A stretch of DNA of 47,331 nt from an uncultured Formosa sp. (GTDB taxonomy: Bacteria; Bacteroidota; Bacteroidia; Flavobacteriales; Flavobacteriaceae): the NCBI GenBank assembly GCA_913052445.1, contig CAJXDP010000010.1, positions 1-47,331 on the forward strand, given 5' to 3'. The position numbers and the translations under genes are program-made. The notes below the pieces were generated by a model that had not been told where the DNA came from, did no database searches, and saw only the letters and a list, made by a program, of their open reading frames with translations. Positions 2,609 to 11,428 of the stretch are shown here, piece after piece (position 1 is the first letter of the stretch; each line of letters starts with the position of its first letter).

Positions 2609-3088
2609 ATGAAAAAGTTTATATTATTATTATCAATCTCAGTTTTATTTATGGGTAGAAATTCTGCGCAAGAATTAACTAAGATGTCTCAAAATTCCTT
2701 TACAGAACTGAATGTAGGTGTTGCTTTCTTAGATGATGGATGGATTCCTTTTCCGGGGGCTTCATTTCTCTGGGGGCAAACTTTCATAAATAAGAATGAT
2801 GTAATTTTTGAATACGAAGTTGGTTTGGCTTTTCCAACTCTTGTAACAGCAAAATTAGGGATAGGAAAGAAATTTAATGATACTAAAGTTATAGTTGGGG
2901 TTAGACCGTGGCCGTTTAACGTCTATGGACAATCAAGTTTTGGTAAAAGAGAAAGTGGGTATTGGATAACTTCAATTGAATTTAATCCAACTTATTCCGA
3001 CAGTTCCTCGTTATCAACAAAAGCAATTTTGAATTTTGGCTATAGATGGAATTTAAAAAGTGGCGAGGCGCTCTTTAGTTGGTGGTAA
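2609..3088 (+). CDS. small exported beta-rich protein, unknown
   Basis: 159 residues with a signal peptide (MKKFILLLSISVLFMGRNSAQ). The rest alternates short beta-strand-like hydrophobic segments with turns and ends in an aromatic tail (EALFSWW), as in small outer-membrane or periplasmic beta-barrel proteins. There are no cysteines or recognisable motifs. The length gives about six to eight strands, so an eight-stranded barrel is possible. It is convergent with the large T9SS protein gene, with 40 bp between them. Confidence 0.7.
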   Translation: MKKFILLLSISVLFMGRNSAQELTKMSQNSFTELNVGVAFLDDGWIPFPGASFLWGQTFINKNDVIFEYEVGLAFPTLVTAKLGIGKKFNDTKVIVGVRPWPFNVYGQSSFGKRESGYWITSIEFNPTYSDSSSLSTKAILNFGYRWNLKSGEALFSWW

Positions 3089-3106: not shown

Positions 3107-3143
3107 ATTATCAAATTTAAAGTTATAGTTAAAACTTGATAAT
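3107..3143. repeat. inverted repeat at the convergent gene ends
   Basis: ATTATCAA (3107-3114) and TTGATAAT (3136-3143) form an 8-bp inverted repeat around a 21-base spacer. It spans the stop codon of the minus-strand gene and the gap after the plus-strand gene. There is no clear T-run, so it is a weak candidate for a shared terminator. Confidence 0.3.
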
Positions 3144-6100
3144 ACGTTTTATGGTGGTTTGATTTCCAGCACTTATTTTCACCAAGTAAACTCCTTCGTT
3201 AAATAAACTTACATCTATTTTATTGGCATTTGAAACAGTCATCACGTGTTGACCTAGCAGTGAATACACTTCAATTTTATAAGCTTCTAAATTTCCTTTA
3301 ATATAAAGCGTATTTGTAACCGGATTCGGGTATACTGATATCAAAGCTACAGAGATTTCTTGGACAGAAAGTTCGCCGCTATTGACTGCGTTGGGACTTC
3401 CATTTTCATTAATACAATTCCAGCTTTCAGGCAACGAGTTGTCTAAATCTGGCGTAATTAACTCGAGGGTATTTCCAGTTCCATCTGCACATGTTGGCCA
3501 GTCAGAAATTTGTGTATCACAACGAGCAAAAACATTCAATCCAACAAGAGTATCCCCGTATTCTCCTGATGCAAGCAGATCCCCATTTCCATCAATAATT
3601 TCCCATGAAACTTCCGAAGACCAATCCCCATCAGTCCAGACAAACTCAATTATATCCCCCTGGGTTGCATCAAATGTTAAACTTGCAGAGAATCCATCTG
3701 TAAAAGTAGCCTCTGAAATAACAACTTGACCTGCGACAATTACATCAACAGCATTTCCTTGCCATCCATCTCCATATGAGTCAAACATATTTAAAGTATG
3801 TGTACACGATGGAAAAGGGTCTTCAACATTATATTCCACTTGATCGATGAGTTTATCTGTAGAATCGAATAATCTAACGGCATCTGACCCGCCCAAACCA
3901 AAGCCTAATTCCCCTAAATAAGGAATGTTAGGAAATACACTTATAAAATCTGATGCATCTTTAACAAATACTAAATAACCATTTCCTTCAATTTGAGTCC
4001 CATCAGGGATTACAAAAACATGTGTGTCATCATCATCTTTAATTTGCCAATTTGAAATATCAATAGATGTTGATTTTGGATTGTATAACTCAATCCAATC
4101 ATCAGCATTAAATGTCGAGCTTGACCTGTAGTTAATCTCATTGATGATCAAGCCTTCAACCTGAATAAGTGCCCCTACCTCGTAAAGACAAATATCAGAG
4201 GCATCTTTCACTATAATATTATAGTTCCCTACAGGAAGGTTGTTAAAGTTGTTAGAGTTCAAAAAGTTTTGTCCGCCATCAATACTATACTGATAGGGGC
4301 TCAGCCCTGATGTCGGGTTAATTACAATTGAGCCATCAGTTGAAATAACAGATGAAGCAGCTGTTACATCAATATCAACTGTGGTAAATTCACATGAGTC
4401 AATTAAAACAGATTCCTCATAAGAGCAAAGTCCTGCAGCCCCTTCAATAATTACAACATAGGTCCCTGGAGACAAATCATTAAATGAGTTAGAGTCGGTA
4501 AATGTTTGACCGCCGTCAATACTATACTGAAATGGACTCAGTCCAGAGGTTGTATTAATTGTAATTGTCCCATTGTTTTCAAGTGTTGAGCTTGCGTGTA
4601 ATACGCTTATGTCAGCTGTAATTTCACAACCAGACTCATCAAGACAAAATACTTCTTGTGTGAAATTATCAAATTCTCCATCATTTATAAGAATAGTATT
4701 CCCTAATGAATCGATAACCTGAAAATTCCCTTCTCCGAAGCCACAGCAGATTCCATCTCCATAAGAATCGTAAACGTACAAAGTAAAGCATGACGTGTAA
4801 TTAACACAAATTTCTTCACTATAGACCTCAGTGTCGTCGTCTAGTGAGCCTGTCGCTATAATTTCATTTACTTCGTTTAAAAGTTTCCAAGATGTCTCTT
4901 CAGGATAATTATCTGCATTAATAGTCAGCGTGATGATGTCATAGTCTGAGTCTAAACTTGTAGTAGACGAATCCGAATTATTCTCAAAACTATCATCTTC
5001 TTGACCATTTACCTCAACTAAGTTTAAAACAATCGTATTGTTTTCTTGTAGGTTTTCATTTATTGAAAGTGCCACAAACTCTTGATTTTGAGTAAGTATC
5101 TCGACTGAAGTAGTAATTACATCAACTACCTGATCGTTAACTACAACTTCAATGGATACTTCATTTATCGTTGTCTCACCATAATTAGTAACAATAGCCG
5201 TTACTTCAACAATATCATCACAAACCACTTCCAATTCTTCAACTGAAATCGCTCCATCTAGTTCCTGAATCTTACTTAAAACAACATTTAAAGTATCATT
5301 GTTTTCGTATTCATCGTAAGGATGGTTAACTTTTACTGTAATGTTATAATCTCCGTTGACTGAAAAATTTTGAGGCGTTGGAAATTGCAAATTAACTTCA
5401 CCAAATGGTTGTATTGTCTGAGGAGTAGTGAACGATTCAATATATTGATCGTCAACGAAAAGTTCGATTTCAATAATGCTCATGTCGTTTAACCCTTGAT
5501 TCGCAATCGTAGCTGTTACAATTTCGTTATCTCCTAAGCTTGAAGAAGACTGAGGGGCTACTATTGCGGTCACTCCCAAGTCGTTATCGGCATTAACATT
5601 TGCCCAAAATGATACCCAAGGCCTTGCTTGTTTAATTATCAATTGATCTTCAGCTGTAACTTTATATTCAATGTCTACTCCAAATCCCTCAGCGCCTACT
5701 ACATCATATAGTATTGCAAATTCGTCATGAATGGTTGTTAGGAATTCTCTCATTTGATCAAGATACGCCTGATCCATTACCAGCTCACCAGGATTCACTA
5801 AGTTGGATAATCTTAAAACAAGATAGCCCCCACCCTGTAAGGGATCTTCATATAATAAAATCTCTTCAGGGACAGAGTTTGGGTCCGGGTTAGTGATTAA
5901 TGACTCCCCTACTTGAGTATTTAAATAAAATGTGTCCTCTGTTTCATAAATAGGGTCAATACTAATTCCAACTCCATTTGATTGCTCACCCTGAAAATTC
6001 GGATGACACAATAACCCCATTGCTGCCATAAAATGATCTACACGATAAAAATCTCTTTCTTCATATGCTCTAAAATTCCACATACTAGCATAAACCTGCT

Positions 6101-7811
6101 TAATAGATTTTGAGATATGACCTTCGTCTAAGTATTGAGTTTTAGATGTATATAAGCCTGCACCACTAAAACCGGGTAAATCTTCATTATTAGTGCTTGA
6201 TCTGCATCTAACAGCTGTTCCTTCAGGAAAATCATCATGCATAGATTGTAGGTCATCCAACATCCATTGGGGCATTGGGGCGTCCTTAATGTCTCTTCTT
6301 AAATCCTTTAAGCGTTGAATGCGAAAATTTATATCGTTCTGGAAGGTAGGATTATCAATCATGACTTGCGCCTCTTGATAAAAATTATTAAACTGCATAA
6401 ATTCATCGTAATAATAAAATGGAATTCCAAAACCGTCGGGAATTGTTCCACTTGGAAGACCAAATGTCCTCATAGTCGCTACATTAGAACACTTTGCGCC
6501 AAACGATGTAGACATGTCAAAATTAATTGCGTCCAGTGGCATAATTTCTGTGACGCTTAAATCTCGTATAGGAAATTGTGGTTCCGTTGGCCTAAGGTCT
6601 TCGTACCAGTCATTGACCTCGGTTAAAGTGGCCTCTCTGATTTCAAACTGTTCATTTTCTACTTTATAATAAACATATCCCCCAAGCAAATTTGCTATCG
6701 CATCATTATCTAAAGGGTTTGCAATATATGCATTTGGCACATTGTCTTGAATAGCTCTTAAGTTAACATGTGACAAAGGGGTTTGTATAACAGAAGTTAT
6801 AATCCCTCCCACTCTTGGAAGTGAGTTGGGCAATGCGTCATATAAAACAATATCTCTACTTCCCGGGGTTTCATTAAGGTCTTGCATGTGCTTAAAAAAC
6901 CCATAGCCTTCTGCTTCATGAAAAGGTATGTAATTAATTTCTGCAAAAACATCAGACTCTAAAACCACATCAATTCTAGATCCTTCAAATTCTGCAGCAT
7001 AATTATCGGAGTGATCATCTTCATCGTTTTGTCCAATAAAGTGGTTCATGTTGTTCTGCAGAAAAGGCATACTGGCTACCAGGAGTTCATATGTTTTTTG
7101 AGTAGCTTCAAAATTATAAGCATCCCCAAAAGAGAAGTTGAAAGAATAAGTTCCTATCACCCCGCTTGGAAGTATTACGCTGGGGTTGAAAACAATCTCT
7201 CCAGAGCTATCGTCTCCAGTTACAGAAGCATCAATTCCATTCCAAAAACTTGCATGTATAGTATACGTGTTACTATTAATAAAATAGACCTTTGGTTCAG
7301 GTGTGTCCCTGTCAAGAATTCCAAACTTAACGTACAGTTGATCATCAAGGAATGGAGCCCATCCAACATTATTAACCGTGGCCAATGTCATAAAGGTTTC
7401 AGTGTCCGGAATTGATGTAGAGCCATCAATAAGGTCAATGGCGGGGGCAAAATTGAAAGGTGAATCAGTAGGCATGTTATTAAATTCTGTAACATCATCT
7501 ATACCGTCTCCATCGTAATCATCAGGTGCTGCTAAATCGTGTTCTGTTATAGTGTACTGTTCTTGAGGATATGCTGCTGCTGGTTCAGAAATGACCATCG
7601 TTCCATTGACTCCTATTGTCATAGATGTCGCCCAGTTAAACGTAGAATTGTGCTGTGCATGTAACACATAGTATTTGCCTTCCTCTGCTTGAATTGATAG
7701 TTGAACTTGTCCAAGACCATTAATGGAATAATTTTCTATTGTTACTTGAGAATAACAAAAATTAAAAAAAGTAATTAAAAAAAGTAATATTGAAGATATT
7801 TTCTTAATCAT
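3129..7811 (-). CDS. T9SS-exported dikinase-like protein: His domain + ATP-grasp + lamin-tail domain
   Basis: 1560 residues. Order as read: signal peptide 1-22; beta region with a calcium-type element 'DYDGDGIDDVTEF' (98-110); phosphohistidine domain about 315-400 with 'TPLSHVNLRA' (His348); PPDK-type ATP-grasp domain about 435-735 with 'RCRSSTNNEDLPGFSGAGLY' (535-554), 'NGVGISIDP' (612-620), 'GVDIEY' (711-716) and 'IIKQARPW' (725-732); two CARDB-like beta domains about 745-950; a 'DSYGDG' domain about 955-1057; two SprB-type repeats about 1066-1137 and 1146-1216; lamin-tail domain about 1218-1330; a second 'DSYGDG' domain about 1336-1430; T9SS sorting domain 1490-1560 ('VYPNPVTNTLYIKG', ending IKRIIKF). 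Histidine domain before ATP-grasp is the order of glucan water dikinases, the reverse of PEP synthase. ATP-grasp motifs and His348 are retained, so it looks catalytic, yet it is exported. The substrate is unknown. Confidence 0.9.
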   Translation of the reverse strand: MIKKISSILLFLITFFNFCYSQVTIENYSINGLGQVQLSIQAEEGKYYVLHAQHNSTFNWATSMTIGVNGTMVISEPAAAYPQEQYTITEHDLAAPDDYDGDGIDDVTEFNNMPTDSPFNFAPAIDLIDGSTSIPDTETFMTLATVNNVGWAPFLDDQLYVKFGILDRDTPEPKVYFINSNTYTIHASFWNGIDASVTGDDSSGEIVFNPSVILPSGVIGTYSFNFSFGDAYNFEATQKTYELLVASMPFLQNNMNHFIGQNDEDDHSDNYAAEFEGSRIDVVLESDVFAEINYIPFHEAEGYGFFKHMQDLNETPGSRDIVLYDALPNSLPRVGGIITSVIQTPLSHVNLRAIQDNVPNAYIANPLDNDAIANLLGGYVYYKVENEQFEIREATLTEVNDWYEDLRPTEPQFPIRDLSVTEIMPLDAINFDMSTSFGAKCSNVATMRTFGLPSGTIPDGFGIPFYYYDEFMQFNNFYQEAQVMIDNPTFQNDINFRIQRLKDLRRDIKDAPMPQWMLDDLQSMHDDFPEGTAVRCRSSTNNEDLPGFSGAGLYTSKTQYLDEGHISKSIKQVYASMWNFRAYEERDFYRVDHFMAAMGLLCHPNFQGEQSNGVGISIDPIYETEDTFYLNTQVGESLITNPDPNSVPEEILLYEDPLQGGGYLVLRLSNLVNPGELVMDQAYLDQMREFLTTIHDEFAILYDVVGAEGFGVDIEYKVTAEDQLIIKQARPWVSFWANVNADNDLGVTAIVAPQSSSSLGDNEIVTATIANQGLNDMSIIEIELFVDDQYIESFTTPQTIQPFGEVNLQFPTPQNFSVNGDYNITVKVNHPYDEYENNDTLNVVLSKIQELDGAISVEELEVVCDDIVEVTAIVTNYGETTINEVSIEVVVNDQVVDVITTSVEILTQNQEFVALSINENLQENNTIVLNLVEVNGQEDDSFENNSDSSTTSLDSDYDIITLTINADNYPEETSWKLLNEVNEIIATGSLDDDTEVYSEEICVNYTSCFTLYVYDSYGDGICCGFGEGNFQVIDSLGNTILINDGEFDNFTQEVFCLDESGCEITADISVLHASSTLENNGTITINTTSGLSPFQYSIDGGQTFTDSNSFNDLSPGTYVVIIEGAAGLCSYEESVLIDSCEFTTVDIDVTAASSVISTDGSIVINPTSGLSPYQYSIDGGQNFLNSNNFNNLPVGNYNIIVKDASDICLYEVGALIQVEGLIINEINYRSSSTFNADDWIELYNPKSTSIDISNWQIKDDDDTHVFVIPDGTQIEGNGYLVFVKDASDFISVFPNIPYLGELGFGLGGSDAVRLFDSTDKLIDQVEYNVEDPFPSCTHTLNMFDSYGDGWQGNAVDVIVAGQVVISEATFTDGFSASLTFDATQGDIIEFVWTDGDWSSEVSWEIIDGNGDLLASGEYGDTLVGLNVFARCDTQISDWPTCADGTGNTLELITPDLDNSLPESWNCINENGSPNAVNSGELSVQEISVALISVYPNPVTNTLYIKGNLEAYKIEVYSLLGQHVMTVSNANKIDVSLFNEGVYLVKISAGNQTTIKRIIKF

Positions 7812-7940: not shown

Positions 7941-8462
7941 TTAGTCAGTGCAAACAAAAGTAGAATGCAATAAATTTATCTGGCTTGCGTTTTTAGAAAT
8001 CACTACCTGATAAATTCGATCATAAATATCTAAATCAAATGCCCCTAACTCTTTACCAACCAAAAGACCTGCTAATACCGCTGTGGTATTGCTGTGTCCA
8101 ACGACGAGTACATCCTGTTTATTGTTTATTAGTGATTTTGAAAATTCCTCGAGGTATTGAGAATTATATTTCTTAATAATCAAGCCCTTAGACAGTGCTG
8201 TTGGAAGAGCAGTTTTTCTAGTTCGATTATAGTCAGTGCTATATATGACATCAAGATTTACTTCTCTAAGAAAGACACTTAAACTTTCTGATCTTTGCTC
8301 TCCACATTTAGAAAGTGGAGGATCTGAGTGGTCATTCGATAATAAATCTTTTTCTGAATGTCTGACTAAATATATTGTAACTAATTCGTCGTCGTTCTGG
8401 GCACCAAGGCTAGAGTGAAATCCTAAAATTATTATAATTATTATAAGATACTTGTTCTTCAT
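7941..8462 (-). CDS. secreted histidine phosphatase (phosphoglycerate-mutase superfamily, SixA size)
   Basis: 173 residues: signal peptide 1-21 (cut near LGAQN), then the catalytic 'YLVRHSEKD' (Arg34, His35; the usual RHG is RHS here), an arginine in 'TDYNRTRKTA' (80-82), Glu105-Glu106 in 'YLEEF', and the second histidine in 'VVGHSNTT' (His123). All catalytic positions of the superfamily are present, so it should be an active phosphatase outside the cytoplasm. It is the short, lidless form, like SixA, which removes phosphate from phosphohistidine; its own substrate is unknown. It is transcribed toward the exported dikinase-like gene, 129 bp away, which suggests a functional pairing by inference. 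Confidence 0.88.
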   Translation of the reverse strand: MKNKYLIIIIIILGFHSSLGAQNDDELVTIYLVRHSEKDLLSNDHSDPPLSKCGEQRSESLSVFLREVNLDVIYSTDYNRTRKTALPTALSKGLIIKKYNSQYLEEFSKSLINNKQDVLVVGHSNTTAVLAGLLVGKELGAFDLDIYDRIYQVVISKNASQINLLHSTFVCTD

Positions 8463-10465: not shown

Positions 10466-11428
10466 TTATTCTTTTAATTTGGTTGTATTATATTTTTCTT
10501 CTAACTTTTCTAGCATCACGCTTGTCATCGATTTTAAATTGAATTTTGGCTTCCAATCCCAGTCATTCCTGGCTTCGTTATCATCTATACTTTTAGGCCA
10601 CTTATCGGCAATTCCTTGTCTAAAGTCAGGCTGATATTCAATTTCAAAACCAGGGTGTTCTTTTTTAATTGCTTCGTAGAGTTCGCTAGGACTAAAGCTC
10701 ATTGATCCTAAATTATATGAAGTCCTTGTTTTAATTTTTGCTTTAGGGACCTGCATAAGCTCGATAGTCGCCCTTATGGCATCTTCCATAAATATCATTG
10801 GTAACTTAGTGTCAGCGTTTAAAAAACAATTGTAAGTTTGTTTCTTAACGGCACTGTGATAAATATCAACCGCATAATCTGTGGTTCCCCCTCCAGGCAT
10901 CGATTGATAGCCAATAACTCCAGGATACCTGATAGAGCGTATATCTAAATCGTAGTTAGTAAAATAGTATTGTGCCCAGTTCTCACCTGCGGCTTTACTA
11001 ATTCCGTATACAGTGGCAGGGTTCAAAAACGCTGATTGTGGGCTTTTTTGTAGAGGAGCTTTATTCCCATAAACAGCTATAGAGCTAGGGAAAAACACCT
11101 TGTTTACAGTACTGATTCTCGCCACTTCAAAGACATTTAGCGTCATTTTCATGTTCAAATCCCACGTTTTTAATGGCTGCTGTTCTCCTTTGGCAGACAA
11201 GATAGCTGCAAGATGATATATCTGAGTTATGGAGTGTTTTTTAACAATGCTATGAACTGAGTCGATATCAGTTGCATCCAAAAGTTCAAATACTCCCTCA
11301 AAATTAGAGTCTAAATAAACGTCAGATGCTATAACTTTAGAAATTCCATGAATGTTCTGAAGTTCCTTTATTAATACAGAACCTAACTGCCCATTGGCTC
11401 CTATGACTAAAACAATATCATCGCTCAT
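10466..11428 (-). CDS. tdh: L-threonine 3-dehydrogenase, short-chain (epimerase-like) type
   Basis: 320 residues with an N-terminal Rossmann motif 'VIGANGQLGS' (residues 8-17), 'SSIAVYG' about residue 115, and the catalytic Tyr/Lys 'YGISKAAGENWAQYY' at about 140-154. This is the NAD-dependent extended short-chain form known from Flavobacterium and animals, unrelated to the zinc-dependent E. coli enzyme. It oxidises threonine to 2-amino-3-ketobutyrate for the Kbl protein encoded 3 bp downstream. UDP-sugar epimerase is the main alternative, but linkage to kbl decides for Tdh. Confidence 0.93.
   Translation of the reverse strand: MSDDIVLVIGANGQLGSVLIKELQNIHGISKVIASDVYLDSNFEGVFELLDATDIDSVHSIVKKHSITQIYHLAAILSAKGEQQPLKTWDLNMKMTLNVFEVARISTVNKVFFPSSIAVYGNKAPLQKSPQSAFLNPATVYGISKAAGENWAQYYFTNYDLDIRSIRYPGVIGYQSMPGGGTTDYAVDIYHSAVKKQTYNCFLNADTKLPMIFMEDAIRATIELMQVPKAKIKTRTSYNLGSMSFSPSELYEAIKKEHPGFEIEYQPDFRQGIADKWPKSIDDNEARNDWDWKPKFNLKSMTSVMLEKLEEKYNTTKLKE

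Follow-up and report, generated by a model that had tools for sequence, protein, structure and literature searches.

A putatively exported phosphohistidine dikinase-like protein and its linked histidine phosphatase in Bacteroidota

Dikinase-superfamily enzymes are known as intracellular proteins. The alpha-glucan water dikinases (GWD) carry a phosphohistidine domain ahead of a C-terminal ATP-grasp domain. For rifampin phosphotransferase (RPH), one report describes a loss of rifampin resistance upon substitution of Lys22, Arg117 or Thr136, a roughly 10-fold weaker ATP half-reaction retained by the Arg117 and Thr136 variants and none by Lys22Ala, and a dispensable Glu297 (PMC4844700). In E. coli, SixA removes the phosphohistidine phosphate from the phosphocarrier NPr (PMC7948535) and from the enzyme intermediate of Ndk (PMC12934123). 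We analysed a stretch of 47,331 nucleotides (the window: positions 1 to 47,331 of contig CAJXDP010000010.1, assembly GCA_913052445.1) from an uncultured Formosa sp. that encodes a dikinase-like protein with export signals, called the dikinase below for brevity, and next to it a histidine phosphatase.

What seems to stand in this window is an intact-looking dikinase under strong constraint, in a protein whose sequence signals suit the cell surface. We estimate at about 55% the probability that it is an exported, working dikinase and that the phosphatase acts on its phosphohistidine or on its product. A first-pass annotation had described an exported, apparently intact enzyme with the domain order of GWD; it made no mention of the neighbouring phosphatase, of either sister class or of the TLC-type gene that adjoins one of these classes. 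Our literature search, which left most subscription journals outside, returned no paper describing such an exported dikinase-phosphatase system.

Putative catalytic core and export signals of the dikinase

The dikinase gene lies at 3129..7811 on the minus strand, stop codon included, and encodes 1560 aa from an ATG start, as first placed. The protein opens with a signal-peptide-like stretch (aa 1-21, 7749..7811), recognised from its own hydropathy and that of its relatives. After a beta-rich region comes an unnamed N-domain (aa 121-289, 6945..7451), a candidate acceptor-binding domain that is conserved among relatives and has a possible hhalign match in sister class B; the whole of aa 20-290 has no Pfam match, and in particular none to a starch-binding carbohydrate-binding module (CBM). 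It is followed by a phosphohistidine-like swivel domain (aa 290-430, 6522..6944), in which His348 (codon 6768..6770) is, from its conservation in relatives, the presumed phosphate carrier, and by an ATP-grasp domain (aa 431-740, 5592..6521).

The ATP-grasp assignment comes from two sources. Pfam matches PPDK_N at aa 436-647 (E 4.4e-19, 69 bits, cut-off 27), downstream of His348, as the first-pass annotation had it, and a joint profile matches seven PDB sequences labelled phosphoenolpyruvate (PEP) synthase (E 4e-23 to 3e-29); the 5fbs and 5hv entries among the PDB matches are presumably RPH. Four motifs could be located: LSH, which contains His348, RSSTNNED (537-544), DIEY (713-716) and QARP (728-731). 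Counting by hand on the 5hv2 alignment, where positions are shifted by 12 relative to 5fbs, we found that Lys440, Arg537 and Ser556 align with Lys22, Arg117 and Thr136 of RPH, the hydroxyl being kept at Ser556. The Lys, Arg and Ser/Thr phosphate ligands of the superfamily and the swivel His are all present. At E <= 0.001 the dikinase is the sole PPDK_N match in its source genome (1.73 Mb, 81% complete).

For the His348 domain, no Pfam model matches at E up to 10, in a search whose HMMER filters discard most matches above 0.1. The top PDB hit of its joint profile is a PEP synthase, at a non-significant E of 0.58, with two SH motifs aligned; we take the SH of that hit to be the phosphohistidine loop of PEP synthase. 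The domain is assigned as a swivel because of its alignment with two remote classes and of this PDB hit.

Relatives of the same class (class A) are the best 80 of at least 363 candidate stretches found by tblastn in named genomes. Their core is 77-98% identical to that of the dikinase, and their record titles name Flavobacteriales, Flavobacteriaceae, Crocinitomicaceae, Saprospiraceae and Chitinophagales, nearly all as metagenome-assembled genomes or uncultured organisms. One further title, Euryarchaeota archaeon (L087), belongs to a contig with a bacteroidete dikinase-phosphatase pair that is probably mis-binned. Lys440, Arg535, Arg537, Glu543, Asp544, Ser556 and Arg586 are conserved in 80/80 aligned loci, and Ser347, His348, Glu715, Gln728 and Arg730 in 79/80, the remaining row being a gap. 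The conservation that had been expected of homologues is therefore found: apart from gaps, no member of the alignments (12 and 25 sequences; 80 loci) is without the His or the ATP-side residues. Median identity to the dikinase is 84-86% in the two catalytic regions and 80% in the N-domain (over 32 relatives); it falls to 53-59% across aa 741-1210 and is lowest, at 30%, for the tail. The ratio of non-synonymous to synonymous substitution rates (dN/dS) of the core is 0.023-0.028 in the three of five pairs where it could be computed, a rough figure as dS is 1.4-1.9 and near saturation. The core is under purifying selection. From the motifs RSS..EDL, DIEY and QARP it had been argued that the domain does not look dead, and the intact residues and low dN/dS agree with this.

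Turning to export, the N-terminus of the dikinase is hydrophobic and of the signal-peptide type, with a best 10-residue mean hydropathy of 2.7, and a similar start is found in 72/72 relatives where the position could be judged; these calls come from a crude hydropathy test, not from a signal-peptide predictor. The C-terminal sorting domain of the type IX secretion system (T9SS; aa 1493-1558, 3138..3335) is matched by Pfam PF18962 (E 2.7e-13) and by NCBIfam TIGR04183 (53 bits, cut-off 23), in agreement with the sorting domain first described. In a domain census of 33 full-length proteins (the dikinase and 32 of 63 complete relatives), all 33 combine PPDK_N with the T9SS tail. The source genome possesses sprA, a gene of the T9SS translocon (2737 bits, cut-off 200), whose profile matches in 0/14 control genomes; the machine that would read the sorting signal therefore exists. 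We infer that the dikinase leaves the cell via Sec and T9SS. Searches of viral contigs with the alignment of each of the three classes yielded no relatives.

Besides the core and the tail, the first-pass annotation had named adhesive beta domains and a lamin-tail domain. The latter (LTD; aa 1220-1328, 3828..4154) is clear (Pfam E 1.6e-18), and Pfam also recognises a SprB repeat, the better of two stretches being at aa 1158-1182 (4266..4340), but the CARDB-like beta domain at aa 743-842 (5286..5585) scores 18 bits in the dikinase itself, under the cut-off of 22.7. In the census, CARDB is found in 29 proteins (E <= 0.001), SprB in 28 and LTD in 16: the lamin-tail domain is optional in the family. 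The motif DSYGDG occurs twice, at aa 1015-1020 and 1344-1349, outside the domains named by Pfam.

The linked histidine phosphatase

Upstream of the dikinase gene by 129 bp, and on the same minus strand, a gene at 7941..8462 encodes a histidine phosphatase of 173 aa (His_Phos_1, Pfam E 8e-13) with a signal-peptide-like start. A phosphatase gene is linked to the dikinase in 62/80 loci. It lies upstream on the same strand in 57, and within 353 bp in 56 of these (the larger gap, in L085, is due to a shortened dikinase ORF); in four loci it sits on the opposite strand, 84-87 bp downstream, and in one it is downstream at 1031 bp. In seven of the 18 loci where it was not found, the upstream sequence is shorter than 600 bp. 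Among nine window genes tested for neighbour conservation, none besides the phosphatase recurs in more than 3/80 loci, many of which have short flanks. On the other side, convergent with the dikinase, positions 2609-3088 encode a small protein with a signal-peptide-like start, judged by eye; it has no Pfam match and is absent from the dikinase loci compared.

The association extends to gene content. Among 100 related genomes, a close orthologue of the phosphatase (at least 54% identity) is present in 13 of the 14 genomes with a dikinase core at 83% identity or more, against 0 of the 86 others (Fisher p 2e-15, uncorrected for relatedness). The one exception is G009, apparently the genome of locus L040, where the contig breaks off 31 bp upstream of the dikinase ORF. 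Distant homologues (at most 44% identity) are common, and 42/100 genomes are matched in all.

The partner phosphatases look intact and exported. R34 and H35 are kept in 62/63 aligned partners and R80 and H123 in 63/63, four residues that are presumably catalytic; the N-terminus is hydrophobic in 62/62 partners judged, with a lipobox-like motif in 23. His348, once phosphorylated, would be a natural target for such an enzyme, since SixA acts on the His of NPr and Ndk. The profile scores do not make the partner a SixA: with 22.8 bits it does not reach the SixA equivalog TIGR00249 (cut-off 74.5).

Sister classes and a carrier-like gene

Two further classes, B and C, and a short class A-like form appear among the relatives. 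Class B proteins are mostly 625-645 aa long, with about 30% core identity to the dikinase; class C proteins measure about 966-1040 aa and have 21-23% core identity; the class A-like form, of 830-835 aa, has 57-61%. The Ser-His pair, the Lys, RS..N.ED and Q.R are invariant in 12 sequences aligned across classes, and Ser-His is invariant in 25 aligned sequences of the three classes. By the same crude test as above, a hydrophobic N-terminus is found in 20/20 class B, class C and A-like proteins read with flanks. One protein of each group was scanned for the T9SS tail, which is present in the A-like protein and was not found in those of classes B and C; these two classes, therefore, need not reach the surface. 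The N-domain is possibly common to classes A and B, which are collinear there and align by hhalign with an E of 3.8e-4 and a probability of 36 in one comparison.

Directly beside the dikinase, class C loci L151-L161 (11 of 17 read with flanks) carry two beta-lactamase-like serine hydrolase genes (11/11 each) and, in 10/11, a TLC-type HEAT-repeat gene, 9/10 of these matching TLC at E <= 0.001 (neighbours were grouped by BLAST, with Pfam names taken from L151). A histidine phosphatase lies about 5 kb from the class C dikinase in L154 and was seen in 0/19 other loci read with flanks. Within the phylum, class C is found at full length in 12/395 genomes. The carrier profile matches 40/395 genomes at E <= 1e-10, a set that comprises each of the 12 class C genomes plus 28 more. 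Scores above 700 bits occur in 10 genomes, all within the 12, while the 28 others fall below; this line was drawn after the scores had been seen, the next score being 564. Leaving out the six genomes that supplied queries, the carrier exceeds 700 bits in 4/6 class C genomes and in 0/383 others. The co-occurrence is not a matter of linkage alone, because in G274 the class C dikinase and the carrier-like gene are about 150 kb apart.

At class B loci, a DUF4956 gene is convergent with the dikinase in 5/7 cases (L144, L145, L146, L149 and L150), in two bacterial families. We did not retain it as a class B partner: four of the five loci share other neighbours, and only L146 is independent.

Possible roles and comparison with known systems

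The reaction might proceed as follows. The dikinase would exit the cell through T9SS, as its signal-peptide-like start and sorting tail suggest, and its CARDB, SprB and lamin-tail domains might hold it at the surface or present it there. By homology, the ATP-grasp domain would move the beta-phosphate of ATP or of a related donor to His348, yielding AMP and Pi. From the swivel, the phosphate would go on to an acceptor bound to the N-domain; a glycan or protein of the cell surface is the likeliest candidate. Finally, the phosphatase would strip the phosphate from His348 or from the product, and so reset or limit the reaction; linkage, co-occurrence and the SixA precedent point to this last step.

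Several observations weigh against this proposal. Extracellular ATP is scarce. Some TLC-type proteins are ATP/ADP exchangers, and the TLC-type gene beside class C bears on this objection: its product may be ATP/ADP-carrier-like and supply ATP to class C, though not to the class found in the window. In the source genome (81% complete) a Pfam search, which was silent in 14 control genomes, found no TLC-type carrier, a weak negative. On the chemistry, no profile scores over its cut-off on the swivel domain in any of the three classes. Structure models are poor: AlphaFold gave a mean pLDDT (its per-residue confidence score) of 48 for the core, from 43 sequences, and of 56 for aa 20-745, from 71 sequences, both sets being too alike; in the longer model the first 260 residues are mostly at 66-93 and the catalytic part mostly below 50. 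Foldseek, run with the low-pLDDT core model, ranks PEP synthase 2ols first (E 5e-4, TM 0.20), with HpeI 9goj also matched (E 7e-3); with the longer model 9goj comes first and no match reaches E <= 0.001. These rankings are consistent with the dikinase assignment, and are not proof of it. Lastly, 1/80 class A loci has an in-frame stop before His348 (L085:4426-4650), which could be an assembly error or decay.

The phosphatase, for its part, is not universal. In 11/80 loci it is missing despite at least 1.9 kb of upstream sequence, and these are real local absences. Whole-genome searches for 15 of the 18 loci without a linked gene (those 11 plus four cut short) gave five genomes with no homologue, seven with only a 35-44% homologue and three with one at 55-63%, among them L061, whose locus is cut at the gene start. 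G083, one of the 86 genomes mentioned above, has a class A-like protein (61% core identity) and no close phosphatase, and the two class A-like loci read with flanks have none. As the genomes are mostly incomplete assemblies, such absences are weak. Moreover, in NCBIfam the phosphatase scores best against phosphoserine and alpha-ribazole phosphatase models, with SixA behind them and all far below cut-off, so that it may act on phosphoesters rather than on phosphohistidine.

Four other explanations were considered. The dikinase could be a GWD-like glycan kinase whose substrate is a polysaccharide, either exogenous or made by the cell itself; the phosphatase would then be the counterpart of plant SEX4. 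This overlaps with the proposal above, and taken by itself we consider it unlikely. The domain order is that of GWD. When the swivel region was compared with Pfam in one class B and one class C protein, PF22973, the model of the GWD phosphohistidine domain, came out on top, ahead of the PEP-utilisers, with 16.0 and 19.9 bits respectively against a cut-off of 27. However, PF22973 has no match in the dikinase at E up to 10 and exceeds its cut-off in 0/15 genomes (best 19.6 bits, class C); at a loose threshold it hits 10/15 genomes, partly outside dikinases, and 5/14 control genomes too. The lack of a CBM hit also speaks against this reading. The window ORFs that were scanned showed no recognisable polysaccharide-utilisation locus, just a sugar-epimerase-type gene (10466-11428) whose homologue lies near the dikinase in 2/80 loci.

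Phosphate scavenging is a slightly less probable explanation: dikinase and phosphatase together would split an extracellular nucleotide into AMP and two Pi, water being the final acceptor. It would account for the pairing with no extra acceptor, many relatives have record titles that look marine, and phosphate can be scarce in marine settings. A simple nucleotidase would be cheaper, however, and an N-domain kept at 80% median identity suggests a specific ligand. No phosphate-uptake gene was seen in the 19 ORFs scanned among the 28 others of at least 150 aa in the window.

An extracellular ATP-dependent ligase, joining surface molecules in the manner of the prodigiosin ligase PigC, of the same superfamily, is very improbable in our view. 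The PigC NCBIfam model does hit the dikinase (E 8.4e-9) and a class C protein (E 2.9e-20), and class C adjoins beta-lactamase-like genes, but the 33.9 bits of the dikinase are far from the PigC cut-off of 1300, and the linked phosphatase would be left unexplained. Least credible is a nucleotide-binding surface protein or adhesin without turnover, its fold kept for binding only: the CARDB, SprB and lamin-tail domains and the scarcity of ATP would fit, but His348 and the phosphate ligands are kept across three diverged classes and dN/dS is low.

Our preferred reading remains a probably exported dikinase with its phosphatase. A broader and doubtful extension is that Bacteroidota practise ATP-driven phosphohistidine chemistry outside the inner membrane with three diverged exported dikinase classes, one reset by an exported phosphatase and one fed by a dedicated ATP/ADP-type carrier, which would jointly form a class of extracytoplasmic phosphotransfer systems. 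A dikinase and a phosphatase that both appear to be exported hint at a kind of phosphate chemistry on the bacterial surface that has gone unrecognised; if they do work there, one must ask which molecules, at the surface or further out, bacteria phosphorylate, and with which energy source. For the problem of ATP supply, the carrier-like gene of class C suggests an answer that can be tested.

How does the system compare with known ones? CotH-type kinases are a secreted bacterial kinase fold, at times found beside lamin-tail domains; theirs is a protein-kinase-like fold, unlike that of a phosphohistidine dikinase. GWD has its phosphohistidine domain before the ATP-grasp domain, and the same beta-phosphate chemistry is expected; the dikinase may work like GWD, as an analogue by domain order; it differs by its signal-peptide-like start, its T9SS tail and the further domains after the ATP-grasp. 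The kinship with GWD is weak: the domain order agrees, but the PF22973 match and the starch-binding domain are missing. PEP synthase and pyruvate phosphate dikinase share the PPDK_N ATP-grasp domain and the phosphate ligands with the dikinase (53 bits against the PEP synthase equivalog, cut-off 598); however, Pfam gave no match to the PEP/pyruvate barrel over the full 1560 aa (E up to 1), the domain order is reversed, and the dikinase is apparently exported. The partner phosphatase resembles SixA as a His_Phos_1 protein with the conserved RH, R and H, and differs from it by its apparent export and its score below the SixA cut-off. RPH, finally, has an ATP-grasp domain with the equivalents Lys22, Arg117 and Thr136 and a swivel His, as does the dikinase (33.7 bits against the RPH NCBIfam model, cut-off 999). 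In RPH the ATP-grasp is N-terminal, a rifampin domain comes next and the His lies near the C-terminus (PMC4844700), whereas in the dikinase the order of the swivel and ATP-grasp domains is reversed.

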